From NCBI RefSeq assembly GCF_007273535.1, contig NZ_RIBP01000001.1, forward strand, positions 496,001 to 560,000: a stretch of 64,000 nt of DNA. Direction: 5' to 3'. Below are positions 1,108 through 57,493 of this stretch, piece after piece. The position numbers and the translations under genes are program-made. The stretch's first letter is position 1, and every line of letters begins with the position of its first letter. Source of the stretch: Niallia circulans. GTDB lineage: Bacteria; Bacillota; Bacilli; Bacillales; Cytobacillaceae. The notes beneath the pieces were generated by a model. It made no database searches and was not told the origin of the DNA. It saw only the letters and a list, made by a program, of their open reading frames with translations.

Positions 1108-1689
1108 ATGAATATTACGTCATTATTACTGTACTGCTTTATCGTAACGTTTACGCCAGGACCTACTAATATTGTTATATTATCAACAGTACATAATAAC
1201 GGAACAAAAAAGGCAATGGAGTATACATATGGTGCAACAATTGCCTTTGGTTTGTTATTAAGTTTGTCTGCAGTTCTGAACACTATATTAGTAACTTTTA
1301 TCCCAAAAATATTAATACTAATGCAGATTATCGGAAGTATATATATGCTCTATCTAGCTTATCAAGTCTATAAAACAAACAATGAAAAACCAAAAGCAAA
1401 TGAAAAGCAATCAGGTACATTCCTGTCTGGTTTTTTCTTGCAGTTTTTAAATCCTAAAGTATTGTTATTTACATTAACAGTCATTCCAACCTTTATCATG
1501 CCATACCATCTTTCCTTGTCTAAGATTATTTTAAGTGTAATGGCAATCACCGTAATTGGATTTTTAGCATTTATCACATGGGTGCTTTTTGGAGCATTAT
1601 TTAAGAACTTTTTACAGCAGCACGAAAAAACGGTGAATACACTGATGGCACTATTTTTAGTGTATTCGACTTTCATGATTTGGATGTAG
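1108..1689 (+). CDS. LysE/RhtB-family amino acid exporter
   Basis: A 193-residue integral membrane protein with about six hydrophobic segments. The N-terminal FTPGPTNIV matches the conserved TPGP motif of LysE/RhtB exporters, which move amino acids or related small solutes out of the cell. The start is ATG 1108, after a GGAG site; an upstream in-frame extension lacks a ribosome site and reads unlike the family. It is followed 17 bases later by an AraC-family regulator on the same strand, which probably controls it. Substrate unknown. Confidence 0.85.
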   Translation: MNITSLLLYCFIVTFTPGPTNIVILSTVHNNGTKKAMEYTYGATIAFGLLLSLSAVLNTILVTFIPKILILMQIIGSIYMLYLAYQVYKTNNEKPKANEKQSGTFLSGFFLQFLNPKVLLFTLTVIPTFIMPYHLSLSKIILSVMAITVIGFLAFITWVLFGALFKNFLQQHEKTVNTLMALFLVYSTFMIWM

Positions 1690-34424: not shown

Positions 34425-36137
34425 ATGAATCTTCAGGACCAACCAAATATCACAAGACGAGGGGCAGAACTAATTGTTGACACACTGATTGCTCAAGGTG
34501 TCACACATGTTTTTGCAATACCAGGTGCAAAAATTGATGCTGTTTTTGATGTGCTGCAAGACAGAGGACCAGAGCTAATTCTGTGCAGACATGAACAAAA
34601 TGCAGCATTTATGGCAGCAGCAGTTGGAAGACTGACAGGCAATCCTGGCGTATGCCTTGTAACCTCAGGACCTGGAGCTTCAAATCTTGCAACAGGCCTA
34701 TTGACGGCTAATACAGAAGGCGATCCAGTTGTGGCAATTGCAGGCAATGTAATTCGCGCTGACAGATTAAAACGCACACATCAATCGCTGGATAATGCAG
34801 CATTATTTAAACCTGTAACAAAATACAGTGTGGAGGTACAGGATGTCAAGAATATCCCTGAAGCGTTAACAAATGCCTTTCGTACGGCGAAATCAGGCCA
34901 AGCAGGCGCAGCATTTATCAGCTTTCCACAAGATGTAGTTACAGAAGAAACATCTGTAATGCCATTAGCAGCGTTGCCTGCGCCAACACTTGGTGCTGCA
35001 GCAGAAAGCAGCATCCGCTCAGCCATTGCAAAAATTCACAACGCTAATCTTCCTATTGCCATAGTAGGAATGAAAGGAAGTAGGCCAAAAGCAGTAAAAT
35101 CAATCCGGAAATTTCTCCATACATTAGGAATCCCCTTTGTAGAGACATATCAAGGAGCAGGCACTCTTTCAAGAGAGCTCGAAGCTCAATATTATGGACG
35201 TATCGGGCTTTTTGCCAACCAGCCAGGTGATCTTCTCATTGAACAGGCAGATCTCATTATTACTATCGGCTTTGATCCAATTGAATATGATCCAAAGTTT
35301 TGGAATGTAAATAATAATCCGAATATTATTCATGTTGATGAAATTCAAGCAGATGCTGACCATTATTATCAGCCCTGCCTTGAATTGATCGGTGATATTT
35401 CCTCGACAGTTGCCGAATTAGACTTTTTCTCTGTTCCGGCAAAAATAAGTGGCGAGAAAAATGAATTTCTTGCCAGACTTAGAAATCTTCATGAAGATAT
35501 GGAAACACCAAAGTCAAATCAACAGCAAAGTCTGTCCCATCCATTACAAGTAATTAATGCGTTAAGAAGCCAAATTGCAGATGACGTTATTGTTACTTGC
35601 GATATTGGCTCACATGGGATATGGATGTCACGTCATTTTCGCTCTTATGAACCAAATACACTGATGATTTCAAATGGAATGCAAACACTCGGTGTCGCTC
35701 TTCCTTGGGCAATTGGTGCAGCTATATTGCATCCAGACAAAAAAATCGTTTCTGTATCAGGAGACGGGGGGTTCCTGTTCTCTGCTATGGAGCTTGAAAC
35801 AGCCGTTAGGATGAAGGCTAACATCGTTCATTTAGTTTGGAATGACAGTAAATATGATATGGTATCCTTCCAACAGAAAATGAAATATAACCGTGATTCC
35901 TGTGTTGAATTCGGACCAATTGACATCGTAAAATATGCAGAAAGTTTTGGTGCAACAGGACTTAGGGTAAACTCACCACAAGAGCTGTCAACCGTTCTTG
36001 AGAAGGGCCTGCAGCAGGAAGGACCTGTCATTATTGACATCCCAATTGACTATAGAGAAAATATCGATTTGGCAAATCAAAAATGGCCGGATTATTTCAG
36101 TCAGCAAGCAGTTGAAAGAGAGCTTTGGCATTCGTAA
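34425..36137 (+). CDS. alsS: Catabolic acetolactate synthase
   Basis: 570 residues, thiamine-diphosphate enzyme: N-terminal catalytic Glu in [19 protein letters not shown], central domain, and C-terminal ThDP/Mg motif ([30 protein letters not shown], shown in part: GDGG...WND). It condenses two pyruvates to 2-acetolactate and CO2. As the AlsS type it lacks a regulatory subunit gene beside it and is linked to alsR and alsD. A strong AAGGAG site precedes the ATG. Confidence 0.94.
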
Positions 36138-43305: not shown

Positions 43306-44163
43306 ATGAAACAAAGTTACACGCTAACCCAGTCACAGAAAATGATGGTCTTTATTTTATCGATGTCTCTTTACGGCTTGTCTAACATGATTACTGAACT
43401 TGTACCTTCTATTTATCTTGGTCCAGTTGAATTCTCCATTGAGTATTTTGCATTCATCCCGCTAACACTATGTATTTTGTTTCACCCACTTTATGCTGGA
43501 ATTGGAGCTGCATTAGGCGAAATAATTTTTGGGGAAATTATGCTTGGTCAATTCGGAGGCTTTGGTGAGCTTGAGAAATTTATTTCCTTTTCCCTTGCGA
43601 TGTACATTGCTGGCAGTATGGTTAAAAATCCAAGGAACAAGCGTCAAGTTGGGATTGCCGCAATTACTGGTGTTATTATTCATCAACTGATAAGTATGAT
43701 GGTTGATATAGGGAAAGTTTGGGTTGGTGTTGATGACTTTGAAGCACTTCCTGGGCTTGCCGAAAGTGTCGTTGTAGTTGAAGGGTTCTCCTTTTTGAAT
43801 GATGTGCTTTTTTCCGGTATCTTATTTGCACTCTTGCCAACACTTTATCTTGTACCAAGACTTTACGGGAAAATAGAACCGTTGTTGGGAATGAAGCCGC
43901 GCACTCCTGATAACGCCTATACTATTCTCGGGATACTACATCCAAGGTTTTTGATTCCAGTTATTTTATTGGCGGTAGCTGCATTCGGGTTTGAATATTT
44001 ATCAGAAACAGAATGGAATATCTTCGAATGGGAAGCAACATTTTCAAATATTTCCGAATCAACGTTAACCTTAATTTCGTTAGGTATTGCAGCGGTTGTT
44101 TCTGCTGTTATTGTATATGTGCTTCTTAAACGGTCTAAAAAGGAAAGGAAAAAAGCAGCATGA
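43306..44163 (+). CDS. ECF transporter substrate-binding (S) component, unknown specificity
   Basis: 285 residues, larger than most S components, with six or more helices and a basic tail (KRSKKERKKAA). It has S-component features: an N-terminal helix, GIGAALGEIIFGEIMLG and a conserved Gly-rich helix 3/4, but no known vitamin-specific motif. Its stop overlaps the ATPase start (ATGA). Position in an S-A-A-T operon with RpiR and a PHP hydrolase suggests an unusual, possibly phosphorylated or sugar-related substrate. Confidence 0.75.
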   Translation: MKQSYTLTQSQKMMVFILSMSLYGLSNMITELVPSIYLGPVEFSIEYFAFIPLTLCILFHPLYAGIGAALGEIIFGEIMLGQFGGFGELEKFISFSLAMYIAGSMVKNPRNKRQVGIAAITGVIIHQLISMMVDIGKVWVGVDDFEALPGLAESVVVVEGFSFLNDVLFSGILFALLPTLYLVPRLYGKIEPLLGMKPRTPDNAYTILGILHPRFLIPVILLAVAAFGFEYLSETEWNIFEWEATFSNISESTLTLISLGIAAVVSAVIVYVLLKRSKKERKKAA

Positions 44164-45866
44164 ACCCAATAATAGACATTCAGAATGTAAGTTTTACTTA
44201 TCCTAATGAGGAAGAAGCAATCTTAAAGAATGTCAGTATTACTGTTGATAAGGGAGAATTCTTAGCTATTATTGGCGGAAATGGGAGCGGTAAGTCAACG
44301 CTTTGCAAGCTCTTGAATGGCTTAATTCCTCATTATTATACAGGTGATTTTGAAGGAGAAGCTTGCATTAATGGACTTAATGTAACATCAAATACAGTAG
44401 CAGAGCTTTCCGAGCATGTTGGCTATGTTTATCAAGATTTTGAGAATCAGATTGTTCAAGCAAGAGTAATCGAAGATGCCGCATTTGCTCCACTTCACTT
44501 TGGCTACGCTGATTATATGGAAAGAGCACGAGAAGCACTTAAAATTGTCGGACTAGAGGATTATGAAAATGAATTTGTGTGGCAGCTAAGCGGCGGACAG
44601 AAGCACTTGCTTGCATTGGCAGGGTGTTTGGCGTTAAGCCCAGAAATTATTGTGCTTGATGAACCGATAGCACAACTCGACCCTTACCATGCAAAATCTA
44701 TGTATGATGTATTAAGAAAACTCCATCATCAATACGAGAAGACAATCATTGTGATTGAGCATCACACAGAATTTATTGCCGAATATTGCTCGACTGTTTT
44801 GTTAGTCGAAAAAGGACAGGTCGTGTGGAAGAGACCCGTTCGGGAGGCTTTAACGGCAATTGAGGATTTAACTGCCCGAAATATATATCCGCCGCAAGTA
44901 ACACAGGCTGCATATGGGTTAAACGTGGGTAGTGGAGCGATTCCAATTACATTGCAGGAAGCTGAGCGCAGTTTTGCACATTTCGTAAAGAAGGTTATTC
45001 ATGCAGCTGATACCCCGTCCATGAAATCCAGCGAAGCAATAGCCGAATTTAAGGACGTCAGTTTTTCGTATCAAACTGTTGAACGATCGTATAAGCAAAT
45101 ATTAGAGGATATAAACATTACTTTTTATAAAGGAGAAAAAGTGGCGCTTGTTGGCAATAATGGTGCTGGGAAATCGACGTTGCTCCGTTTGCTGACAGGG
45201 TTTCGGAAGCCGAATGCTGGAACTGTTTCTATTAAGGGGAAGGCAACAGCAAAACAGTCACCAGAAAAACTGGCAGATATTATTACATACATCTACCAAA
45301 ATCCAGAGCAGATGTTCATTGAGGATTCTGTGCGCAAGGATGTAGAGTTTTTCTTGAAGGCTCGTAAACAAAAAGGATACGAAGACATAGTTGATCATAT
45401 TCTTGAGCTTTTCCATCTTACTGAGCTTCAGCATAAAGACAGCAGGCTAATGAGTGGTGGCCAGCAGCGGAGAGCATCACTTGCCATTGGGGCTGCTATG
45501 AATCCAGCGGTTATTCTCCTTGATGAACCAACTGCCAATTTGGATATTGCTACTCGTAAGCACCTCACTCAGTTCATTGATAAGCTGGCAGTTAGAACAG
45601 AGTTAGTGCTGATTGCCACACATGATATGCAGCTTGTCAGTGAATGGGCTACACGTGTTGTCGTTATGAACAATGGCCAAATTATTTATGATGGTGGCAA
45701 GGAAGGATTATTTTCTAATCCCATACTGATGAGAAGGGCGGGGATTATTCCTCCGCAAATTGTAGAGTTATCACATAAGCTCAACATAACACCTGCTAAG
45801 TATACGATTGCTTCATTTATAGATTTTTTTCAGGAGGAATCTGCATGGACTATTCAAAAAACATGA
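44160..45866 (+). CDS. Fused ECF energy-coupling ATPase (two ABC domains)
   Basis: 568 residues holding two complete ABC ATPase domains, equivalent to EcfA1 and EcfA2 joined. Domain 1: Walker A GGNGSGKST, signature LSGGQKHLL, Walker B IIVLDEPIAQLDP. Domain 2: GNNGAGKST, MSGGQQRRA, VILLDEPTANLD. Joined around residue 285 by a polar linker. It powers import by the S component through EcfT in the membrane. The start overlaps the S gene by four bases, and the end overlaps ecfT by 22 bases. Confidence 0.92.
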   Translation: MNPIIDIQNVSFTYPNEEEAILKNVSITVDKGEFLAIIGGNGSGKSTLCKLLNGLIPHYYTGDFEGEACINGLNVTSNTVAELSEHVGYVYQDFENQIVQARVIEDAAFAPLHFGYADYMERAREALKIVGLEDYENEFVWQLSGGQKHLLALAGCLALSPEIIVLDEPIAQLDPYHAKSMYDVLRKLHHQYEKTIIVIEHHTEFIAEYCSTVLLVEKGQVVWKRPVREALTAIEDLTARNIYPPQVTQAAYGLNVGSGAIPITLQEAERSFAHFVKKVIHAADTPSMKSSEAIAEFKDVSFSYQTVERSYKQILEDINITFYKGEKVALVGNNGAGKSTLLRLLTGFRKPNAGTVSIKGKATAKQSPEKLADIITYIYQNPEQMFIEDSVRKDVEFFLKARKQKGYEDIVDHILELFHLTELQHKDSRLMSGGQQRRASLAIGAAMNPAVILLDEPTANLDIATRKHLTQFIDKLAVRTELVLIATHDMQLVSEWATRVVVMNNGQIIYDGGKEGLFSNPILMRRAGIIPPQIVELSHKLNITPAKYTIASFIDFFQEESAWTIQKT

Positions 45867-46663
45867 TTGACAAGCTGAATGTGGAGCAAATGAAAATTGA
45901 GTTAATGAATACGGCATATGCCAATGACCAAACATTCATTGCGAAATTAGACCCGCGTGTTTTGTTTATCTGGTATGGTTTTTTTGGAGTTGCGCCATGG
46001 TTTATAGATGAACAAGTTGTATTATTTGGAATGCTCCTTGCGACAATTATCACAACCGTAATAACGAAAGTAAGCAGGCTGATTCTGTTTATTCTTATAC
46101 TTGGCATACTTGGTCAAGGTGGTTATATGTTTATTGCTACCTTATTTTTCGGGGGGAATATCGCTGTATTATTGCCATTAATTATGCTAACAGTGAAGCT
46201 TGCGGTCATCTCGTTAGCAAGTATTACGGTCTTTTGCTCCATGAGTCCTGAAAAGCTCAGTGTTGGGTTATTGAGTATTGGAGTACCAGGACAAGTTTCG
46301 TTTTCGATTTCATACGGTTATAGAATGCTGCCACTGTTGCTTGAGGAGTATAATCATGTATTTATGTCCTATCGCTTAAGAGGAAGAGCTCCCGATAAGA
46401 AGGGGTTTCTTTATTGGAGGATTACCTATTACTTCGTTAGGCTCGCAGTATTGTCCTTTTATCCGCTCCTTTTAAGTGTAGCAAAACGGGCACGAACAAC
46501 GGTTGAGGCACTTGAAACAAAGGGAAGCAAAAATGCATTCAAAAATCCAGTTGTTAAAAAGCTCAAGCTCCAAACACTTAAAATCGGCAGAAGTGATTAT
46601 GGATTTCTAACAATCAGCATAGTTTATATTGTTACTTTGTATATGGTGGCTTTCCAATTATAA
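45845..46663 (+). CDS. EcfT transmembrane coupling protein
   Basis: 272 residues with five or six helices and EcfT features: LDPRVLFIWYGFF near the start and C-terminal coupling helices with SYRLRGRAPDKKG and KRARTTVEALETKG (the Ala-Arg motifs that dock on the ATPases). AGGAGG lies seven bases before ATG 45845 inside the ATPase gene. It couples ATP hydrolysis to the S component. Third gene of the operon. Confidence 0.87.
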   Translation: MDYSKNMIDKLNVEQMKIELMNTAYANDQTFIAKLDPRVLFIWYGFFGVAPWFIDEQVVLFGMLLATIITTVITKVSRLILFILILGILGQGGYMFIATLFFGGNIAVLLPLIMLTVKLAVISLASITVFCSMSPEKLSVGLLSIGVPGQVSFSISYGYRMLPLLLEEYNHVFMSYRLRGRAPDKKGFLYWRITYYFVRLAVLSFYPLLLSVAKRARTTVEALETKGSKNAFKNPVVKKLKLQTLKIGRSDYGFLTISIVYIVTLYMVAFQL

Positions 46664-47657: not shown

Positions 47658-47972
47658 CTACGAAACTAGCTTTAACCCAACTGCTGCACCTAAAACCATC
47701 GCGATAAATATAAGTCTTCGCCAGTCTTTGGACTCCCCGTAAAGAATCATACCAAGTATTGCTCCACCTGAAGCACCAATTCCTGTCCAAATGGCGTAGG
47801 CAGTACCCATAGGAAGAGTTTCCATTGCGTATGCAAGGAAAACAAAGCTTAAGCCAAATCCAACAATCAGTAATAGGAGAGACTGCCAGTTTCGTTCTTT
47901 ATGCAATTTATTTATCATTGTTACACCGAACATTTCACAAAGTCCTGCTGCAATTAAAGCGATCCAAGCCAT
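47658..47972 (-). CDS. ykkD: SMR-family exporter subunit, YkkD-like (guanidinium export)
   Basis: 104 residues, four helices, with the essential membrane glutamate E13 (IALIAAGLCEMFG) and the SMR signature METLPMGTAYAIWTGIG. Closely resembles B. subtilis YkkD. ATG 47972 lies one base after the ykkC stop (TAACATG), favouring translational coupling. The operon begins with a guanidine-I riboswitch, so the natural role is most likely proton-coupled export of guanidinium by a YkkC-YkkD heterodimer, rather than general drug resistance. Confidence 0.88.
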   Translation of the reverse strand: MAWIALIAAGLCEMFGVTMINKLHKERNWQSLLLLIVGFGLSFVFLAYAMETLPMGTAYAIWTGIGASGGAILGMILYGESKDWRRLIFIAMVLGAAVGLKLVS

Positions 47973-47973
47973 G

Positions 47974-48315
47974 TTATGATACATCTCCTTTTTGAGTTTT
48001 ATCCTTTGTTACTAATTTCAACCCGATAACACCTGCTAACAGCAGCAAAATTAACAGTGCTTTCTCCAGTTTAAATGGAACACCAAAGAATAGAATTTCA
48101 GTGAATATTGTTCCTGCAGTTCCCAGACCAACAAAAACAGCATAAACTGTTCCGACGGGCAGTTTTTTTCCTGCCATAATCATGACGTAAAAACTAATAA
48201 CGATACATATAGCTGTTCCTGTCCATGTTAGAAAGCTATCAGAATGCTTTAAACCAATAACCCAAAATACTTCAAAAAATGCTGCAATAAAAACTTGAAT
48301 CCAAGTGGAATTCAT
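47974..48315 (-). CDS. ykkC: SMR-family exporter subunit, YkkC-like (guanidinium export)
   Basis: 113 residues, four helices, conserved glutamate E15 ([18 protein letters not shown]) and [19 protein letters not shown]. It matches B. subtilis YkkC along its length. ATG 48315 has GGAGG eight bases upstream; the longer reading to 48357 runs into the riboswitch terminator. First gene after the riboswitch at 48345-48476. Confidence 0.9.
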
Positions 48316-48344
48316 GTCATGCACCTCCAAATTTATTTTTGCCC

Positions 48345-48476
48345 GAAAAAAAAACAAAAGCCTGGGAGTAAACTGTAAACAGTTTCTCCCAGGCTTTTGT
48401 CCTTCCGTGACACAGCAATTGCTGTGAGTTTTCTCTCGGACCAGACCAGCAAAAATTGCTGCGGAACCCTAGAAAA
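48345..48476 (-). promoter_or_regulatory. Guanidine-I (ykkC) riboswitch with terminator, ykkCD unit
   Basis: Read on the minus strand the leader has the ykkC hallmarks: CTAGGGTTCCG (48472 downward), CTGGTCCGAGAGA, then CACGGAAGGACAAAAGCC. The last element merges into a terminator with arms AAAAGCCTGGGAG and CTCCCAGGCTTTT and a run of nine T. Ligand binding should prevent the terminator and turn on ykkCD. Confidence 0.93.
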
Positions 48477-48597
48477 CATTTTCGAGCTATATAATTAATT
48501 TTTATTATACTGCTATCTTTTTAATATTCAAGGAAGATTTAGTGGTGGAAAAGGGAGTTTTTTTCAAAAAAGAAGAGAAAAAGAGAGATAATGAGAA

Positions 48598-48622
48598 GAG
48601 AAGGGTTATTTTAACCCTTCTC
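48598..48622 (-). terminator. Weak terminator after guanidine operon
   Basis: Arms GAGAAGGGTTA and TAACCCTTCTC just after the allophanate hydrolase stop; only a T-rich, interrupted tail follows on the minus strand. Confidence 0.5.
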
Positions 48623-48628
48623 GATTAT

Positions 48629-50398
48629 TTATAAAACGGAATGCGCAGACGGCTTGCTTGCTGAATATTGATGCCAGCCACCGAAGCGAGTAATGTCCTT
48701 TCCTTCATCTACAGCCCATTGTTCACACAAAAATCCTTTAACAAATGTACCGTCTTTAAGTTCAATCGTACCAATGCTAAGTGGTGATGGGATGAGTGAT
48801 ACGAAAGCACCAAGTTGTTGCACAGGCATTTCCCATAATTCGAGATCAATTTCAGCTCCATTATGTGGTTCACGAATGAGGCCTGGCTTTGCTGGAGCAG
48901 TATTTAATGCGATCAGCTGATAGTTTGCAGAAGTTTTAGTCTTTGTTTTAAATTTGGCATCATGCTCCTTCATTTGCACTTCAAGGGGGTACCCTTGCAT
49001 GTGCAGGCCACAAACTGCAATCGTGACCGTATTTGTTTGCGTCGGCACAGGAGACTCATTTAAAAATTTTGCTGCAAGCCCTGTAATAAGATGTTCATCA
49101 TTAGCACCTGAAAATAAAGTAATTCCAAATGGCAATGTATCTTCTATAGGTTCAGAAGGAATGTTAATGGCAGATAAATCTAGTAAATTACAATGATTTG
49201 TGTAAAGCCCCATTTGACTGTTTGTTTGAATCGGCTCGTGCCGTACTTCAGCTCGTGTCCATGTCCCTCCAGCAGTTGGCATGATCAAAACTGCATCTTC
49301 GAGCTGTAGATGTGCTTTACGTTTTGATGCTTGCAGCTTATGCATTGCTTGAAACAGAGAGGAGGCAGTATATGCTGATTTGGCACCGGTGCGTAACACG
49401 GTTTCTGTTACAGTCAGGCTTGAGTTTGGATGCTCCTCAATAAAAGCTCCTAAATCGGACCATCTTTCAGCAACCCATGGTCCATCATATAAAACAGAAG
49501 CTGCTTCTAACAAGTAGCTGACATCTATCTTTTCAATAAGGATTCCGAGGCTGTTTAGTGTTGTTAAAGCCGTTTGCCAGGCTTGTTCATATTCCTCTGC
49601 AAAAGGTCCGTAAAATACAGGCGAGTCCTTAGGAACTAATAGACGCTTAGGCAGGGATGAAGACTTTCTCTTTAGATCCTTTGACCAAGGATCTTCTTTA
49701 TCAAAGCCTCGAACAATTTCATCCACAAAAACAGTGTCTTGAAGATTAGTAGAAAAAACAGTGACACAATCTATGCTTGCACATGCAGGAACAACCCCTT
49801 TAACGGGCCATGCACCAAGACTTGGCTTGAACCCAATAAGTCCGTTTAAGGCTGCCGGGATTCGGCCAGAGCCGGCAGTATCTGTGCCAAGGGAAAAGGC
49901 TGCTTGACCACGCGCCACAGACACTGCAGAACCAGAGCTTGAACCACCGCTGATAAGTTCAGGTCTTAATGCGTTTTTTGTTTCGCCGAAAGGGCTTCTC
50001 GTACCGACAAGTCCAGTGGCGAACTGGTCTAAATTTGTTTTTCCGACAGGAATGGCACCTGCGTTAATTAAGCGTTGAACAATAGTGGCACTTTGTTCTG
50101 GTGTATAAGCAAAATCAGGGCAACCAGCAGTTGTTGGAATGCCTGCAAGATCAATATTATCCTTGATGGCAAAAGGAATTCCCCATAAAGGTGATGTAGC
50201 TCTGTCTATTAAATCAAGATTATCCAGATAAGAACGAATAAAGCTCCAGGAAGGGGGTGTAATCCAAATATTCATATCCTTATCAGCTTCTGCCCGTTCG
50301 ATAATCAGCTCTATAAGTGCTTCAGGCGTTAACGTGCCATTTTCATATCCTGCCTGGATTTCACGAATGGATAATGTCTTTAGGGAATTTGTCTGCAC
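48629..50398 (-). CDS. atzF: Allophanate hydrolase (AtzF type)
   Basis: 589 residues, amidase-signature enzyme with Ser-Ser-Lys triad: GIPFAIKDNID (Lys about 91), SGGSSSGSAV and GTDTAGSGRIPAA (nucleophile Ser), plus the C-terminal allophanate-hydrolase domain. It splits allophanate into CO2 and two ammonia. The start is GTG 50398, overlapping the carboxylase 3' end by 38 bases in another frame. Last gene of the guanidine-degradation operon, converting the deiminase product to ammonium. Confidence 0.92.
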   Translation of the reverse strand: MQTNSLKTLSIREIQAGYENGTLTPEALIELIIERAEADKDMNIWITPPSWSFIRSYLDNLDLIDRATSPLWGIPFAIKDNIDLAGIPTTAGCPDFAYTPEQSATIVQRLINAGAIPVGKTNLDQFATGLVGTRSPFGETKNALRPELISGGSSSGSAVSVARGQAAFSLGTDTAGSGRIPAALNGLIGFKPSLGAWPVKGVVPACASIDCVTVFSTNLQDTVFVDEIVRGFDKEDPWSKDLKRKSSSLPKRLLVPKDSPVFYGPFAEEYEQAWQTALTTLNSLGILIEKIDVSYLLEAASVLYDGPWVAERWSDLGAFIEEHPNSSLTVTETVLRTGAKSAYTASSLFQAMHKLQASKRKAHLQLEDAVLIMPTAGGTWTRAEVRHEPIQTNSQMGLYTNHCNLLDLSAINIPSEPIEDTLPFGITLFSGANDEHLITGLAAKFLNESPVPTQTNTVTIAVCGLHMQGYPLEVQMKEHDAKFKTKTKTSANYQLIALNTAPAKPGLIREPHNGAEIDLELWEMPVQQLGAFVSLIPSPLSIGTIELKDGTFVKGFLCEQWAVDEGKDITRFGGWHQYSASKPSAHSVL

Positions 50399-53300
50399 TT
50401 AAATCACCGCTTTCTGCTTTTTTAATAGAAACAATTAACTGGCCTGCATACACCTCATCGCCAGGGGCAACATGAATAGATTCAATTGTTCCGTCAAAGG
50501 GAGCTGCTTGTGGAAATTCCATTTTCATGCTTTCTTCAATTATTAATGTATCGCCTTTTTGTACATAGTCTCCAGATGAAACTAGCACCTTCCAAACACT
50601 GCCTGGCATGGAGCTGCGCACAGCTTCTGCACCATCTGGAAGTACTTCCTCTGTATGCTCCGGTGTTTCTTGCTCTGACACATACTCTGCCAAACCAAGC
50701 TCCTGCCATCTTTCACGCTCTTCATGGAAGGCGGCTTGCTGTGTACTGCGGAATGTGTTTGTACTTTCCTCAATAGAGGCTAGAAAAGCTAAATAATCAC
50801 CAAGCTTAAAGGTTGTTTCGGTAATATCAATTTCAAATCTTCCACGCAGGAAATCCTCACGCATAACGAGTAATTCATCTGCACTGACTGGATAAAACGA
50901 GATTTGGTCAAAGAAGCGAAGCAGCCAAGGCTTTCCAGACTGAAAGCTTTCTGTTTCCCGTAATCTGTTCCATACCTGAACAGTTCGGCCGACAAATTGA
51001 TAGCCGCCTGGTCCTTCCATACCATAAACACACATATAAGCACCGCCGATACCAACAGCATTTTCAGGTGTCCAAGTTCGGGCAGGGTTATATTTTGTTG
51101 TAACAAGACGGTGACGCGGGTCAACTGGTGTTGCGACAGGTGCACCAAGATACACATCGCCAAGACCAAGAACAAGATAATTGGCATCAAAGACAATCCG
51201 CTTCACGTCTTCAATCTGATCTAATCCGTTAACACGTCGTATGAATTCTAAATTACTCGGACACCAAGGAGCGTCAGGTCTAACATTCTTCTGGTATCTG
51301 TCAATAGCCAGCTGTGTTGATGGATCATCCCAGGAAAGGGGAAGACGGACAATACGTGATGGTACTTCAATTTCCTCTAATGGTGGCAGTGAACTATTGA
51401 TTGAAGCGATAATATTGCTTAGTTCTTTCACTGTCATTTTGGGTGCATCAATATGAATTTGCAGTGAACGTATGCCTGGTGTCATTTCAATAATAGGCAA
51501 ATCAGTTTCTTTATGAATGGCTTCCATTAAAGCATGAACTTGAAAACGCAGCAGTAAGTCAAGCTCCATCTCACCATATTCGACTAACACATGCTTATCG
51601 CCAGCAGCTCTGATTTTCATCGGAAATCTACCTGTTGAAGATTCAAGTAATACAGGATAGTCGCAAGTAAGCTTGGCGTTATCCTTGGTCAGTGCTGGCA
51701 GGTCTTCTAATTCCGTTTCGCCGATGCTTTGGAGATAGTGCTCTTGCGCGTCGCGAAGCGCTTCTGCTTCTTCCAGTGTAATTAGCTTAAAGCGAATCTT
51801 GTCACCAGCATGAAGCTGGCCAATTTTCCAAAATTCTGCTGATGCTGTTGTAACAGGGCAAACAAATCCGCCCAGACTTGGTCCGTCAGGACCGAGTAAT
51901 ATCGGCATGTCACCAGTTAAATCAAGTGTACCGACTGCATAAGCATTATCATGGATATTTGATGGATGCAGTCCAGCTTCACCACCGTCACTGCGTGACC
52001 ACAAGGGAGCAGGACCAACTAAGCGAACTCCTGTACGTGAACTGTTAAAGTGAACCTCCCAGCTTGTATCTGTAAGCTGCTGCAAATATTCAGGCAACAA
52101 AAACTCTGTTGTGCAATGCGGACCAGGGATGACACCAATTGTCCATTCTTTAGTAATCACTGGTTTACGGTCATTTATGACTGCAGTATAAGCAGGCAGG
52201 GAAGCATCGTTAACAGACAATACGTCACCAGTTCGTAATGCTCTGCCGCCATGTCCACCAAAGCCACCAAGAGTAAAGGTTGCGGCACTGCCTAAATAAA
52301 GGGGCATATCCAAGCCGCCAGCAATAAGGAAATACGTCCGCATTCCTGTATCAGCTTCACCAAATGTTAACGTTTGACCTCTCTTTGCATGGATGACTGT
52401 GTACATCGGCACTTCCACATCCCCAAGAGTTGCATGCATTTCAGCACCAGTTAAACAGAAGGCAGTGTCAAAGCGGAAGCGGTATGTGCCGCCGCGTAAA
52501 GTTAATTCTAAACCAGATGCATTTTCGGCATTGCCTAATAGTTTGTTTCCAATTCGGAAGGACAGTGGGTCCATTGGTCCGCATGGAGGAACACCAACGT
52601 CCCAATGGCCAATTCTTCCTGGCCAATCCTGCACAGTTGTTTGAATACCACCATCAAGCACCTCTATTGCCTGTTCAGCAGGAGAGAAGTTTTCAAGCAT
52701 ACGAGTATAAACAAGCCCGTTTCGGCAATTGTCCTCCGATAAAAGTGCTCGAATATAGGATAGATTTGTTGTGATGCCATAAAATCTTGCCTCTGAAAGG
52801 GCGGTTTCCAGCTGATGAAGCGCATCCTCCCGAGTGTCTCCATGCACAATGATTTTTGCAAGCATCGGGTCGTAAAACGATGTTACAGTAAGTCCGTCAC
52901 GCACCCACGATTCTACCCGGGCATTTTCTGGAAAAATAACTTGATCTATTTGACCGCCGCTTGGACGGAAGTCATTTAAGCAATCTTCAGCATAAATTCT
53001 TGCTTGGATACTATGACCAGCTGGTTTTGTATATAATTGCTCGAGTTCGCGTAACTCGCCGGCTGATTCTCTGACCATCCATTCCACTAAATCAATACGG
53101 AGAACTTCCTCTGTCACTCCATGCTCGACTTGCAGTCTTGTGTTTACTTCAAGGAAGTAAAATTGCTCTGTGTCTGGATCATACAAAAATTCCACTGTTC
53201 CGGCACTGCGATAACCAACCTCTGCAGCAAGGCGTTTTGATGCCAGCAGCATTTGTTCACGCACTGCAGAAGACAGGCAGGGAGCAGGGCTTTCCTCGAC

Positions 53301-54011
53301 GACTTTTTGATTGCGGCGTTGAATCGAGCAATCTCGTTCACCAAGTGCTGCTACCTCGCCAAATTCATTTCCAAATATTTGGACTTCAATATGACGAGCC
53401 TTTTGAATATATTTTTCTAAAAAGACACCACCATTGTTAAAGTTCGTTTGAGCCAGCCTGCTAACAGACTCGAAAACAGTTCTTAATACAGTTTCATCCT
53501 CACAGACTCGCATGCCGATTCCACCGCCGCCAGCTGTGCTTTTCAGCATGACTGGATAGCCGATTTTTGCTGCTTCTGACAGAGCTGTTGAAAGCTCCGT
53601 TATAAGCTTTGTACCAGAAAGCATCGGAACATTTGCTCTTTCGGCAATTTCCCGGGCCGAATGCTTTAAACCAAATAGCTCAATTTGTTCTGGTGTTGGC
53701 CCGATAAAGGCAATGTTATTCTTAAAGCAGGCCCGTGCAAAATCGGCATTTTCACTTAAAAAACCATAGCCAGGATGGATTGCTTGAGCACCTGTTTCGT
53801 GCGCTATTTTAAGAAGAAGCTCTCCATTTAAATAAGAGTCCTTTGCCGCACCTTCACCAATTAGAATAGCTTCATCTGCCAAATCAACATGCAGGCTGTC
53901 TTGGTCTGCTTTCGTATAAACAGCCACAGACTGAATTCCCATTTTTCGAAGAGTACGCTCAATGCGAACAGCAATCGCACCGCGGTTGGCAATTAATACT
54001 TTTGTATACAT
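50361..54011 (-). CDS. Biotin-dependent guanidine (urea-type) carboxylase
   Basis: 1216 residues. Order: biotin carboxylase/ATP-grasp (about 1-450; ATP loop KSTAGGGGIGMRV), KipA/AHS2 domain (about 465-760; TVQDWPGRIGHWD), KipI/AHS1 domain (about 830-1050; YGMEGPGGYQFVGRT), then biotinyl domain with biotin Lys about 1163 in ESMKMEF. This is the urea-carboxylase architecture. The guanidine riboswitch and adjoining deiminase-type genes indicate ATP- and bicarbonate-dependent carboxylation of guanidine to carboxyguanidine. ATG 54011 has GGAG eight bases upstream. Confidence 0.9.
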   Translation of the reverse strand: MYTKVLIANRGAIAVRIERTLRKMGIQSVAVYTKADQDSLHVDLADEAILIGEGAAKDSYLNGELLLKIAHETGAQAIHPGYGFLSENADFARACFKNNIAFIGPTPEQIELFGLKHSAREIAERANVPMLSGTKLITELSTALSEAAKIGYPVMLKSTAGGGGIGMRVCEDETVLRTVFESVSRLAQTNFNNGGVFLEKYIQKARHIEVQIFGNEFGEVAALGERDCSIQRRNQKVVEESPAPCLSSAVREQMLLASKRLAAEVGYRSAGTVEFLYDPDTEQFYFLEVNTRLQVEHGVTEEVLRIDLVEWMVRESAGELRELEQLYTKPAGHSIQARIYAEDCLNDFRPSGGQIDQVIFPENARVESWVRDGLTVTSFYDPMLAKIIVHGDTREDALHQLETALSEARFYGITTNLSYIRALLSEDNCRNGLVYTRMLENFSPAEQAIEVLDGGIQTTVQDWPGRIGHWDVGVPPCGPMDPLSFRIGNKLLGNAENASGLELTLRGGTYRFRFDTAFCLTGAEMHATLGDVEVPMYTVIHAKRGQTLTFGEADTGMRTYFLIAGGLDMPLYLGSAATFTLGGFGGHGGRALRTGDVLSVNDASLPAYTAVINDRKPVITKEWTIGVIPGPHCTTEFLLPEYLQQLTDTSWEVHFNSSRTGVRLVGPAPLWSRSDGGEAGLHPSNIHDNAYAVGTLDLTGDMPILLGPDGPSLGGFVCPVTTASAEFWKIGQLHAGDKIRFKLITLEEAEALRDAQEHYLQSIGETELEDLPALTKDNAKLTCDYPVLLESSTGRFPMKIRAAGDKHVLVEYGEMELDLLLRFQVHALMEAIHKETDLPIIEMTPGIRSLQIHIDAPKMTVKELSNIIASINSSLPPLEEIEVPSRIVRLPLSWDDPSTQLAIDRYQKNVRPDAPWCPSNLEFIRRVNGLDQIEDVKRIVFDANYLVLGLGDVYLGAPVATPVDPRHRLVTTKYNPARTWTPENAVGIGGAYMCVYGMEGPGGYQFVGRTVQVWNRLRETESFQSGKPWLLRFFDQISFYPVSADELLVMREDFLRGRFEIDITETTFKLGDYLAFLASIEESTNTFRSTQQAAFHEERERWQELGLAEYVSEQETPEHTEEVLPDGAEAVRSSMPGSVWKVLVSSGDYVQKGDTLIIEESMKMEFPQAAPFDGTIESIHVAPGDEVYAGQLIVSIKKAESGDLSADKFPKDIIHS

Positions 54012-54027
54012 AGTTGTCACTCCTTTA

Positions 54028-54678
54028 TCATTTATCCCAAACAAGCACCTGTATTGGGGTTGGATTATAAGCGTTACAAGGATTATTTAATTGTGGGCAA
54101 TTGCTGATTAACACGAGCACACGAGCTGCTGCTTCCATTTCCACATAATAGCCAGGAGCAGACACACCATCAGCAAACGTTAAGCCGCCATCTGGTGTGA
54201 CGGGGACATTCATAAAAAAGTTAACATTTGGAGCCAAGTCCCGTTTTGTAAAGCGGGGGTCATTGTTTGAAAGCTGCAGCATAAAGGTATCTCGGCAGTT
54301 ATGCATTGGCAGTGTGTCATGTGAATAGCGGACAGTATTGCTTTGAGCCGAACAGGCGCCGCCGAGTGTATCGTGATTTCCACATGTGTCTGCGACAATT
54401 TTCACTAACTCCTTGCCAGACTCAGATAAAAGGACAGAACCAGTTGTTAAATATACATTGCCTTGCTTGGTAATCGTATTGACTGCACTGTAATGGTCAA
54501 TTGGATTCTCAGCATCATAAAAGAGCGTGTCGGCAGCTTGATTTCCTTCTAAATCGACGATTCGCAGAACCTGCCCTGGCTCTAAAGTGTATGTCCAGCC
54601 ATCGCCAGCCGGAATTGTTTCTGATATGATGGCATTTTCTTGTTTACGTTCGCTTTCAACTCGGTAAAGTACTGCCAT
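54028..54678 (-). CDS. Urea-carboxylase-associated protein, carboxyguanidine deiminase subunit (second)
   Basis: 216 residues, DUF1989/urea carboxylase-associated family: [20 protein letters not shown], metal-site-like cysteine/histidine segment [14 protein letters not shown], and [15 protein letters not shown]. The pair of such proteins forms the carboxyguanidine deiminase (CgdAB) that releases ammonia from carboxyguanidine to give allophanate. Its ATG overlaps the stop of the preceding subunit (TAATG). Which subunit letter it corresponds to is not settled here. Confidence 0.87.
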
Positions 54679-55400
54679 TATTGCATTCCTCCTATCGTAA
54701 GTGCTGAATCATTCCATGTGTTTTCAAAGGCACGCCTGTTTTCTGGACAATAATTGAGGCAGCAATCATCCTCACTAATTGGAGTCGCAGCTGTGACCTC
54801 CAGTTTTACTGGAACAGCAGGATAATTGGTGCTTGGATTTAAAGGATTCGGTGTATTGGATGTAATAAGGAGTACATCCATTTCTGTTCTTAGGACAATA
54901 GAGTCGCCTTTTTTGGCATGCTCAAGGGCATAATGCATCTTTCCATCCTCTGTGCAATAGACCTTAGAAAATAAATTGACAACAGGCACAAGATCACGAA
55001 GAGACATCCCATTACGGAACAATTCAACTGCAAAGTTCTCCTCACCACTGCGGTGCCAGTCATTTCGATATTCCTGATAAGTTGTTTTGCCATAGCGCTC
55101 ATCAACAAGCCGACGTGAGATATAGCCTGAAATAGTGTCATGCCAGCCAAGTGAATCGTCAATAATACTTGCAAGGACGCGGCCGTTATCACTCATCAGC
55201 ACATTTCCCTTCGTTAAGTGAGAGGTATGCTGTGCCTTTAATGTGTCTGGCATATTATACCTTTCTGCAGTATCTGCAGCAGAATACAAAAGCAAGGAAA
55301 TATTTGCGCCATCCTCAGCTGCTGTAAATTTAATCGTTTTTCCACGGCTGATTACACCAGACCATTTTCCACCACCAGGAATGTTAATTACTGTATCCAT
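54678..55400 (-). CDS. Urea-carboxylase-associated protein, carboxyguanidine deiminase subunit (first)
   Basis: 240 residues of the DUF1989 family: [33 protein letters not shown] in place of the Cys-containing segment of its partner, and [14 protein letters not shown]. It is the first gene after the guanidine riboswitch. ATG 55400 follows AAGGAGG seven bases upstream; a longer reading would run through the terminator. The C-terminal [15 protein letters not shown] is Cys-rich. Likely the other CgdAB subunit. Confidence 0.87.
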
Positions 55401-55413
55401 AAATAAAACCTCC

Positions 55414-55552
55414 TTAAAAAAATAAAAGGACAAAAGCGAAAGAGAGATTTTCATCTCCCAGGCTTTTGTCCTTCCGTGTATACAGCAAGTGCTGCACGCT
55501 CTCTCTCGGACCTGACTTTAAAGAAAACTCTTTAAACGGAACCCTAGACAGC
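55414..55552 (-). promoter_or_regulatory. Guanidine-I (ykkC) riboswitch with terminator, degradation operon
   Basis: Minus-strand elements in order: TCTAGGGTTCCG (from 55548), CAGGTCCGAGAGAGAG, CACGGAAGGACAAAAGCC. GGACAAAAGC (55471-55462) pairs with GCTTTTGTCC (55437-55428) to form a terminator, with a smaller internal stem and a TTTTATTTTTTT tail that ends at the AGGAGG ribosome site of the first gene. Confidence 0.93.
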
Positions 55553-55639
55553 TTTTTGTTTTCAACGATATTGTGATTGTGAAAACCTTTATTAGATTGT
55601 TAATAAACTAAAGTATAACTATTCTGAAAATAAAAACTA

Positions 55640-57019
55640 CTAATCTGTCAGATTATCTGACATAGTTTTTTGTTGCAGCAATTTTTTCCTTGTAGTGGAG
55701 CTTTTAACTTTTGATGTTATCCATGCTTTTCTTATGGCCATGTAAATAAAGCCAATAATAAGCCAAGCCAATCCATAAATTAGTGTTTGTTTATTAAGCA
55801 GTGTCAGCAGCCAGCAAATAAAACCAGCGCCAACTAACGGGAAAACAAGATAGACAAAGGTTCCCTTCAAGGACCGTTCTTTTTGCTTAATATAGTAGTG
55901 GGCGATCACAGAAATATTCACAAAGGTAAAGGCAGTCAAAGCACCGAAGCTGACAAAGGTTACAGCTGTATCAAGATCAAAAAAGACAGCAGCGAAGGAA
56001 ATTACTCCAACAAAGATGATGTTAGCAACAGGAGTTTTGTATTTTGGATGAATAGCTGTAAACAGCTTCACTGGAAGAATCGATTCACGACCTAAAGCGA
56101 ACAGGAATCTGCTCACACTTGTCATCGAGGAAACTCCTTGAGTGAATGTGGCAATGATCAACACCATAATAAAGATAGAGCTTAATAGATTACCACCAAC
56201 AAGCTGAACAAGTGCGTATGCAGCATTATCTGGATTTGAAAATGCAAAGTTAGGAAAAGCAACTTGTGTTAAATAAGAAATTGCAATATACATGACAGCC
56301 GCAATAAGGACGATCAGAAAAATTGCTTTCGAAACGGTTTTTTCCGCTTTTATTGTTTCTTCAGACATGGTAGTGACTGCATCAAAGCCAAGAAAACAGA
56401 AGCAAATTAGGGAAGCACCAGTGAATACTGCGCTTAATGAACTATGATCACTTAAAAACGGTGCAAGGGAAAAGAGCGAGCTAGCAGCAGTGTCACCAGA
56501 AAGAACATCCTTAACAATTAATGCACAAAATAACACGATAAAAGCAATTTGCACAAGGACAGATATACCACTGATGCGGGCTGCAGATTTAATGCCGATG
56601 ATGTTAACAATAACTAGCACAATATTCATGATAATAATCCAAACGAATACCGGAATAGAGGGGAATTCTGTATTCATAAAGATGCCAAACGTTAAAATAG
56701 CGATAATAGGGGAGAAGACATAATCTAATAAAAGGGCCCAACCAACTAAGAAACCGACCTTCGGATGAATGGATTTTTTTGTATACGTATAAGCGGAGCC
56801 AGAAATAGGGTAAGCCTTTACCATGCGGCTATAACTGAAGGCGGTGAAAAAGATCGCTATAAAAGCAATCAAATAAGCAGGAGTCATCATGCCATCTGCA
56901 GCTTCAAATGCCACTCCATAAACGGTAAAAAATATCATTGGTGTCATCCACGCAAGCCCCATGAATACAACTTGATGGAGCTTTAAGGTTTTTGTTAATG
57001 TCGGTTTTTGATTAATCAT
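55640..57019 (-). CDS. APC-family permease under guanidine riboswitch control
   Basis: About 459 residues, twelve helices, APC superfamily, closest in character to PuuP/YhdG-like amine and amino-acid permeases: VVFMGLAWMTPMIFFTVYG in helix 1, PISGSAYTYTKKSIHPKVGF and FLGFDAVTTMSEETIKAE. Tail is basic and polar. ATG 57019 lies nine bases after AGAGG; ATG 57028 is possible. Its own guanidine-I riboswitch starts 29 bases upstream. Import of guanidine or of a guanidine-yielding compound is inferred; exchange or export is not excluded. Confidence 0.87.
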   Translation of the reverse strand: MINQKPTLTKTLKLHQVVFMGLAWMTPMIFFTVYGVAFEAADGMMTPAYLIAFIAIFFTAFSYSRMVKAYPISGSAYTYTKKSIHPKVGFLVGWALLLDYVFSPIIAILTFGIFMNTEFPSIPVFVWIIIMNIVLVIVNIIGIKSAARISGISVLVQIAFIVLFCALIVKDVLSGDTAASSLFSLAPFLSDHSSLSAVFTGASLICFCFLGFDAVTTMSEETIKAEKTVSKAIFLIVLIAAVMYIAISYLTQVAFPNFAFSNPDNAAYALVQLVGGNLLSSIFIMVLIIATFTQGVSSMTSVSRFLFALGRESILPVKLFTAIHPKYKTPVANIIFVGVISFAAVFFDLDTAVTFVSFGALTAFTFVNISVIAHYYIKQKERSLKGTFVYLVFPLVGAGFICWLLTLLNKQTLIYGLAWLIIGFIYMAIRKAWITSKVKSSTTRKKLLQQKTMSDNLTD

Positions 57020-57047
57020 ATTATTCATCCTCTTTTCCAAAATAAAT

Positions 57048-57184
57048 TTGAAAAAATAAAAGCCCGGGAGAATTTTTATACAAAATTCTCCCGGGCTTTT
57101 ATCCCTCCGTGTATACAGTATAGCAATACCGTACGCCACCTCTCGGACCAGACGTTTTTACAAACCGGAACCCTAGGCGGCATC
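57048..57184 (-). promoter_or_regulatory. Guanidine-I (ykkC) riboswitch with terminator, permease gene
   Basis: Minus-strand elements: CCGCCTAGGGTTCCGG (57180 downward), CTGGTCCGAGAGG, ACACGGAGGGATAAAAGCCC. The final arm also forms a perfect 17-base-arm terminator beginning AAAGCCCGGGAGAATTT, followed by TATTTTTTC. Closest of the three to the classic ykkC consensus. Confidence 0.94.
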
Positions 57185-57493
57185 TTTGTTCTATGACAAG
57201 AACCAATATTATTTGATAGTTATGAGTATAAAGACAAAAATCAAGACGTCAATTAAGTTGTCAGATTATTTAACATATTATTTTGGAATTTAGAAAGTAT
57301 AAATAAAAAGATAACGCTCTCATTATGATGCGCAGAGCATTTTTAACTAAAATTATTTCCGTTAAGAAAAGATCAGCAACATGACAAATGCCTAAAGGGT
57401 AATTTCCGGAACTTTTCTACTATTCATTCGTATTAAGTTTTAGAGAAGGAATAAAAATACAGTTTTAAACTACACAAGTATGGAGGGATATAG
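57185..57493. other. Intergenic region between permease riboswitch and DedA-like export gene
   Basis: About 300 bases holding the divergent promoters and a small GCTCT/AGAGC hairpin near 57315-57345. No gene seen. Confidence 0.5.

Follow-up and report, generated by a model that had tools for sequence, protein, structure and literature searches.

The window analysed here, a 64 kb stretch (64,000 nucleotides) of contig NZ_RIBP01000001.1 of Niallia circulans, carries on its minus strand three consecutive units, each preceded by its own guanidine-I (ykkC) riboswitch: a permease gene (unit 1), a catabolic operon (unit 2) and a pair of small multidrug resistance (SMR) genes (unit 3). We propose that they form a module for the import, catabolism and export of guanidine with two inputs, in which assimilation requires both TnrA/GlnR and guanidine and export requires guanidine alone; we put the probability of this reading at about 0.75. 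It suggests that guanidine is eaten only under nitrogen scarcity but pumped out at any time. The aptamers, terminators, enzyme families with their key residues, regulator boxes, distances to the -10 and conservation were computed, as was the presence of genes for TnrA and GlnR; from these we infer ligand binding, the binding of TnrA/GlnR and its direction, the permease substrate and Gdx activity.

In the proposed mechanism, nitrogen limitation would free TnrA to activate the permease and catabolic promoters. RNA polymerase would then reach the riboswitch and would continue only with guanidine bound: without guanidine the terminator would form, and guanidine binding would hold the 3' part of the aptamer and let transcription proceed. 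The exporter promoter, an ordinary sigma-A-like one with no box, would always be available, and guanidine alone would decide. Whether guanidine is a stressor or a nitrogen source is an open question about guanidine riboswitches, raised in the accessible text of PMC12186494. A nitrogen-regulator box on the assimilation leaders and not on the exporter leaders would help to answer it at the sequence level in the Bacillota, and the predicted condition for operon activity is guanidine together with nitrogen limitation.

Three guanidine-I riboswitches in the window

A search of the window with cmscan and Rfam 15 finds three minus-strand matches to RF00442 (ykkC), upstream of the permease gene (switch 1, 57086..57187; 95.0 bits, E 5.5e-16), the catabolic operon (switch 2, 55453..55558; 85.9 bits, E 6.2e-14) and the SMR exporter (switch 3, 48384..48483; 91.2 bits, E 3.9e-15). 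All three are full length (model positions 1-107), against a gathering cut-off of 63 bits. No other Rfam match in the window reaches the gathering score, and the genome (5,459,439 bases, 4 contigs) holds no other RF00442 match at E <= 0.001. A preliminary description of this stretch had proposed three guanidine-I leaders, and the covariance search scores them all; the three minus-strand sites were right, but the ends given were a few bases off and included the terminators.

The 3' end of each aptamer lies within a long terminator stem on the same strand, at 57056..57102 for switch 1 (-33.5 kcal/mol, z -9.6), 55424..55475 for switch 2 (-28.2 kcal/mol, z -6.5) and 48350..48404 for switch 3 (-36.2 kcal/mol, z -10.0). 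With the stems folded alone, 0 of 200 shuffles were as stable in each case, which agrees with the earlier remark that the leaders merge into terminators. The overlap of 17-23 nt has the form of a mutually exclusive expression platform. Because the terminator overlaps the aptamer 3' end, each switch looks like a transcriptional ON switch in which the ligand-bound aptamer is set against the terminator. In their full-length match, conserved core and overlapping terminator the three resemble other members of RF00442, and we saw no difference within the aptamers; what differs is the row of three copies, one ahead of each of three units. Genes separate the switches, so this is not a tandem riboswitch in the sense of at least two aptamers in one untranslated leader.

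Two classes of promoter

The box upstream of switch 1 (TGTTAAATAATCTGACA, 57259..57275, minus strand) matches exactly the inverted repeat TGTNAN7TNACA, which PMC3412718 (accessible text) gives as the TnrA/GlnR box, and also the tight consensus TGTNANAWWWTNTNACA as quoted in the accessible part of PMC4475385. The box upstream of switch 2 (TGTCAGATAATCTGACA, 55646..55662, minus strand) lies in the 3' end of the permease gene and matches both forms as well. We first met the inverted repeat on reading the stretch between the permease gene and switch 2 in 20 collinear loci. In both units of the window a -10 hexamer, TATACT, follows 45 nt after the start of the box (57225..57230 for unit 1 and 55612..55617 for unit 2, minus strand), and the box centre is about 49 bp before the inferred transcription start. 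A centre at about -49 is the usual position for activation by TnrA, and boxes 1 and 2 both occupy it. This position suggests that units 1 and 2 would be transcribed chiefly when nitrogen is limiting.

The SMR unit has a promoter-like sequence of another kind, TTGAAT-16-TATAAT (48504..48531, minus strand; a promoter-pair match), with no TnrA box. There are therefore two promoter classes, one with a TnrA/GlnR box before permease and catabolism and one without before the exporter, and this suggests that import and assimilation would need nitrogen limitation and guanidine together, and export guanidine alone. The preliminary description missed both the boxes and the two classes.

A -35 candidate, TTGACG at 57252 with a spacer of 16, completes the unit 1 promoter (TTGACG-16-TATACT, 10/12). 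For unit 2 we also considered TTAACA-16-CACAAT (9/12) and rejected it, since it ranks first in no locus beyond the window and the two relatives nearest to it, while the TATACT farther upstream recurs. Three more loose matches to TGTNAN7TNACA occur in the window (1463-1479, 34748-34764 and 44750-44766); none is tight, and about 2 are expected by chance.

The box in the genome

The tight consensus occurs at 17 sites in the 5.46 Mb genome and at 0 for the reversed control. Two of the 17 sites precede switches 1 and 2, where a hand calculation puts the expectation for three lengths of 200 nt at about 0.002. Across ten further genomes the tight form has 2-21 sites and the control 1-4. Other tight sites include ones upstream of an ammonium transporter gene, a glutamine-type ABC transporter gene and gltC; the remaining open reading frames scanned near the 15 other sites (10 of 23 listed were scanned) include no clear nitrogen gene. 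The genome encodes TnrA (best PDB matches 4r24 and 4r22) and, as read from the sequence, has a GlnR-like gene immediately upstream of a glutamine-synthetase-like one.

Conservation of the box and its spacing

We assembled 151 leaders from 80 carboxylase loci, the Niallia relatives and the SMR leaders of the family, and searched the 200 nt before each aptamer for the box, with mononucleotide shuffles as the null. The 80 loci are the best of 585 confirmed matches and are biased to close relatives; flanks extend to at most 10 kb and some contigs are cut. Aptamers were located with a model (R1) built from 19 aptamers, the window's included. One of its 115 matches, of 28 bits, was left out of the locus, box and spacing counts; it lies 200 nt upstream of a full match (L051:6511-6572) and is possibly a decayed duplicate. 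The SMR leaders come from the 30 loci with the best SMR1 matches among 193 genomes searched, plus L073, each entered once; L123 was dropped, having only 28 nt of upstream sequence. Six pairs of entries are the same places (L010/L119, L095/L118, window/L117, L092/L124, L094/L123 and L096/L121).

The exact loose box is present in 58/70 catabolic leaders (0.49 expected from shuffles), 20/21 collinear permease leaders (0.15 expected), 16/16 divergent permease leaders (0.13 expected) and 7/14 other leaders (0.04 expected). Permease leaders together have it in 36/37 cases, and catabolic and permease leaders in 94/107. None of the 30 SMR leaders has the exact box within the 200 nt searched (0.17 expected). 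In divergent pairs one box may serve both sides. Within 90 nt upstream of the SMR aptamers, the best promoter-like pair has its -10 20-26 nt before the aptamer in 28/30 leaders, with an exact TATAAT in 25/30 and a -35 beginning TTGA in 25/30, counts that carry no shuffle control.

A -10 hexamer (at least 5/6) lies 45-47 nt from the box start in 43 of the 101 box-bearing leaders. This amounts to 43 hits in 255 positions, where the rate of 0.009 at other offsets gives 2.3 expected. The spacing is seen in 26/58 catabolic, 13/20 collinear permease and 4/7 other leaders, so that this activator-like geometry is the usual one in collinear leaders of the Bacillaceae type without being general. With the nitrogen boxes the three-switch finding becomes a testable two-input scheme, encountered across Bacillaceae and Paenibacillaceae loci, that would separate assimilation from export.

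A number of points weigh against the scheme. The loose box is at background genome-wide (156 sites, with 172 for the reversed control), so that a match by itself is weak evidence, and we discarded the genome-wide count as proof. In G168, one of the ten further genomes, even the tight form is rarer than the control (2 against 4). The activator-like spacing is found at only 2 of the 15 other tight sites of the Niallia genome and is missing at the ammonium-transporter box, and the near-consensus promoter of unit 1, with its good -35, might work without an activator. We found no paper to confirm the -49 rule, and the box sequence does not tell TnrA from GlnR. Among the catabolic leaders, 12/70 lack the exact box, 5 of them by one mismatch; the box-less ones include Anaerobacillus, Clostridium and three proteobacterial loci. 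None of the 16 divergent permease leaders has the spacing, which indicates that the mode of action differs between lineages. Finally, the leaders compared are related and not independent.

Some of these points are what would be seen if guanidine alone controlled all three units, the boxes being inactive remnants or serving something else: the background frequency of the loose pattern, the ammonium-transporter box without the spacing and the strong match of the switch 1 promoter to consensus. That account leaves unexplained the presence of the box in 94/107 catabolic and permease leaders, against its absence from the SMR leaders, and the excess of -10 hexamers at the preferred distance, 43 where about 2 are expected, and we regard it as quite improbable. 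Two of the 12 box-less catabolic leaders (L047 and L057) have the box at another switch of the same locus. Outside the Bacillota the box is absent from all nine loci with a switch (L080-L084 and L086-L089; L085 had no switch).

In ten Paenibacillaceae loci (L058-L060, L063-L066, L068, L069 and L077) the box is found 26-36 nt upstream of the aptamer, and L060 has a -10 candidate within the box. GlnR might therefore repress from a box at or near the -10 in some Paenibacillaceae, reaching the same logic by a route other than TnrA activation; Paenibacillus polymyxa WLY78 is reported, in the accessible text of PMC9948412, to have GlnR and no tnrA. The placement of these -10 sequences was judged by eye and not scored, and GlnR can also activate (PMC6191146). 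We hold repression in these loci as a tentative possibility, somewhat short of an even chance. The window is not such a case, its boxes being well upstream of the -10, and activation in nitrogen limitation is the reading we prefer there. A third geometry is seen in L018 and L020, where the box overlaps the -35 of TTGACA-17-TATACT upstream of the catabolic switch.

Genes of the three units

All genes of the module lie on the minus strand. Unit 1 is an APC-superfamily permease (55640..57019; PF00324/PF13520; the ATG start was checked), presumed from its context to import guanidine. Its score against the NCBIfam model for the permease of the urea carboxylase system (TIGR03428) is 48 bits, below the cut-off of 740. 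Unit 2 begins with two DUF1989 proteins, UAAP1 (54678..55400; TIGR03425, 291 bits, cut-off 206) and UAAP2 (54028..54678; TIGR03424, 308 bits, cut-off 285), presumed to be the subunits of a carboxyguanidine deiminase. They are followed by a guanidine carboxylase, for which the family name is urea carboxylase (50361..54011; TIGR02712, 1754 bits), and an allophanate hydrolase (48629..50398; TIGR02713, 634 bits, cut-off 511; PDB 4gyr).

The assignment of the carboxylase to guanidine depends on two residues. In an alignment with the Kluyveromyces lactis enzyme as reference, Asp708 (numbered on the 1227-aa open reading frame) stands at Asn1330 and Asp963 at Asp1584. According to the accessible text of PMC11410670, Asp instead of Asn at position 1330 together with Asp at 1584 marks guanidine carboxylases. 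Asp is present at both positions in 81/81 aligned sequences, the window's included. With both residues, the DUF1989 pair and the allophanate hydrolase in one operon, the features of the guanidine carboxylase pathway are all present.

Switch 3 is followed by two SMR genes that overlap, SMR1 (47974..48315; best PDB matches 8vxu and 6wk5, 68 bits, EmrE-type chains <=29) and SMR2 (47658..47984; best match 6wk5, 62 bits, EmrE-type chains <=28). The pair is nearer to Gdx than to the EmrE drug exporters, and we take 6wk5 to be Gdx-Clo; these matches point to a probable Gdx activity, the export of guanidinium. A hairpin between the catabolic operon and the SMR unit (48598..48622; -18.4 kcal/mol, z -5.5), with a weak T tail on this strand, is a possible terminator. 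The family profiles bear out the gene content that had been read from the sequence (APC permease, DUF1989 pair, urea-carboxylase-like enzyme, allophanate hydrolase and SMR export), and with the aptamers, terminators and carboxylase residues they support the earlier picture of a guanidine module under three separate guanidine-I switches.

Independence and arrangement of the units

The sensors of the three units had also been described as independent. Each unit does have its own promoter-like sequence, but there is no convincing intrinsic terminator between the permease gene and switch 2: we find no stable hairpin there (z +0.98), and the best terminator candidate is weak (-10.1 kcal/mol over 58 nt including the box). 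The gap is also short, ranging from about 23 nt to about 114 nt over the 20 collinear loci read. Units 1 and 2 might then act in series, the permease transcript reading into switch 2 to pass two guanidine gates and give a steeper response. PMC9481103, in its accessible text, lists guanidine-I among the riboswitch classes not found in tandem, so a series separated by a gene would be new. Against this, unit 2 carries a conserved box of its own, which in the window is followed at the preferred spacing by a -10, and in 16/80 loci the two units are divergent and serial reading is impossible. For these reasons we rejected serial gating as the main design and consider it unlikely, and we keep to separate promoters with two inputs for assimilation.

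At least one match to the aptamer model is found in 76/80 loci. Classed by the next gene, 28 loci have a catabolic switch only, 15 a collinear permease and catabolic switch, 16 a divergent permease and catabolic switch and two a catabolic and an SMR switch (L010 and L073); 15 show other patterns and four none. In L010 the permease is present and its own switch falls off the contig start; in L073 the SMR unit with its switch lies beside the catabolic unit. The row of independently sensed units had been called unusual. That holds for the adjacent SMR switch (2/80 loci) but not for two switches side by side, the permease/catabolic pair recurring in 31/80, and we dropped three switches in a row as a novelty in itself.

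In the family, 149/193 genomes have a guanidine-I match. At least 21 carry no fewer than three; of the places listed, those in the window's genome (G000) and in G012 are the only ones to hold three in a span of 10 kb. At least 19/193 genomes show, among the places listed, two matches spaced by about 1.6 kb, a count based outside the genus on the matches alone. The two clostridial carboxylase loci L074 and L076 have two DUF1989 pairs each and no guanidine-I match.

Within the genus, 6/13 genomes have guanidine-I matches, the window's included. The closest named relative found is Niallia taxi (L010), with 95% identity in the carboxylase. The three-unit row recurs in G012 with the flanking genes unchanged, and in G011, whose match coordinates are those of L010, the row is split over two contig ends. 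In G009 contigs break inside the allophanate hydrolase gene and just before the SMR switch, so adjacency there cannot be judged. In G007 (L090, L091 and L092) the flanking PHP-domain and DedA-like genes are about 0.8 kb apart with no module between them; the permease/catabolic pair is about 60 kb and the SMR unit about 350 kb from this site. The three-unit row thus appears to have been assembled at this location within a single Niallia branch, by a route and in a direction that we can only suggest from such comparisons. Other short coding stretches seem to be present between the PHP and DedA-like genes of G007. An SMR2-like fragment (77% identity) follows the allophanate hydrolase in L062 (L062:15379-15549), with no SMR1 match or second switch; it is perhaps a decayed exporter unit.

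Comparison with known systems

The carboxylase clusters of Raoultella, Erwinia and Klebsiella described in the accessible part of PMC12186494 likewise have two switches, before importer and deaminase genes and before carboxylase and allophanate hydrolase genes. They combine guanidine-I with guanidine-II and an ABC importer, whereas the window has three guanidine-I switches, an APC permease and an exporter in a row. In the comammox guanidinase operon (PMC11410670, accessible text) guanidine-I directly precedes an APC permease taken as the guanidine importer, as in the window; the window differs in its carboxylase pathway, in the separate switch for each unit and in its TnrA/GlnR boxes. A guanidine-family switch is combined with a second input in the leaders of branched-chain amino acid operons that carry a T-box and a guanidine-type riboswitch (PMC12452182, accessible text). 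Those leaders hold two RNA sensors, whereas in the window each leader has one RNA sensor and the second input would be a DNA-binding regulator acting on the promoter. The three-switch finding by itself belongs to a known kind, and the nitrogen boxes are the added element.

With the TnrA/GlnR regulon of the Bacilli (PMC4475385 and PMC3412718, accessible parts) the window shares the box consensus, targets of the alternative nitrogen-source type and the presence of both TnrA and GlnR genes. The accessible text of PMC3412718 makes no mention of guanidine, ykkC, allophanate or urea carboxylase in the regulon, and among the matches listed in the open-access literature we found no link between TnrA/GlnR and guanidine assimilation genes. 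In the accessible part of PMC4475385, TnrA is bound at Bacillus subtilis ykkC, with a box found by allowing up to 8 mismatches and with no TnrA effect in the conditions tested; guanidine is not named there. B. subtilis ykkC is an SMR-type target, so the exemption of exporters may have exceptions between species, a further point against our scheme. On one reading, a closed riboswitch hid the TnrA effect at this gene. We lean slightly towards a more general view, that the promoter class before a ykkC switch reveals whether the cell handles guanidine as a food or as a poison, and that hidden riboswitch termination may explain promoters of this sort, bound by TnrA and showing no TnrA effect when guanidine is absent. 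Mapping a regulon in the absence of the ligand can overlook TnrA/GlnR targets behind a closed riboswitch.

Adjoining the module, at 43306-46663 of the window, are genes for an ECF-type transporter (a membrane protein, a double ATPase and a T-like component).

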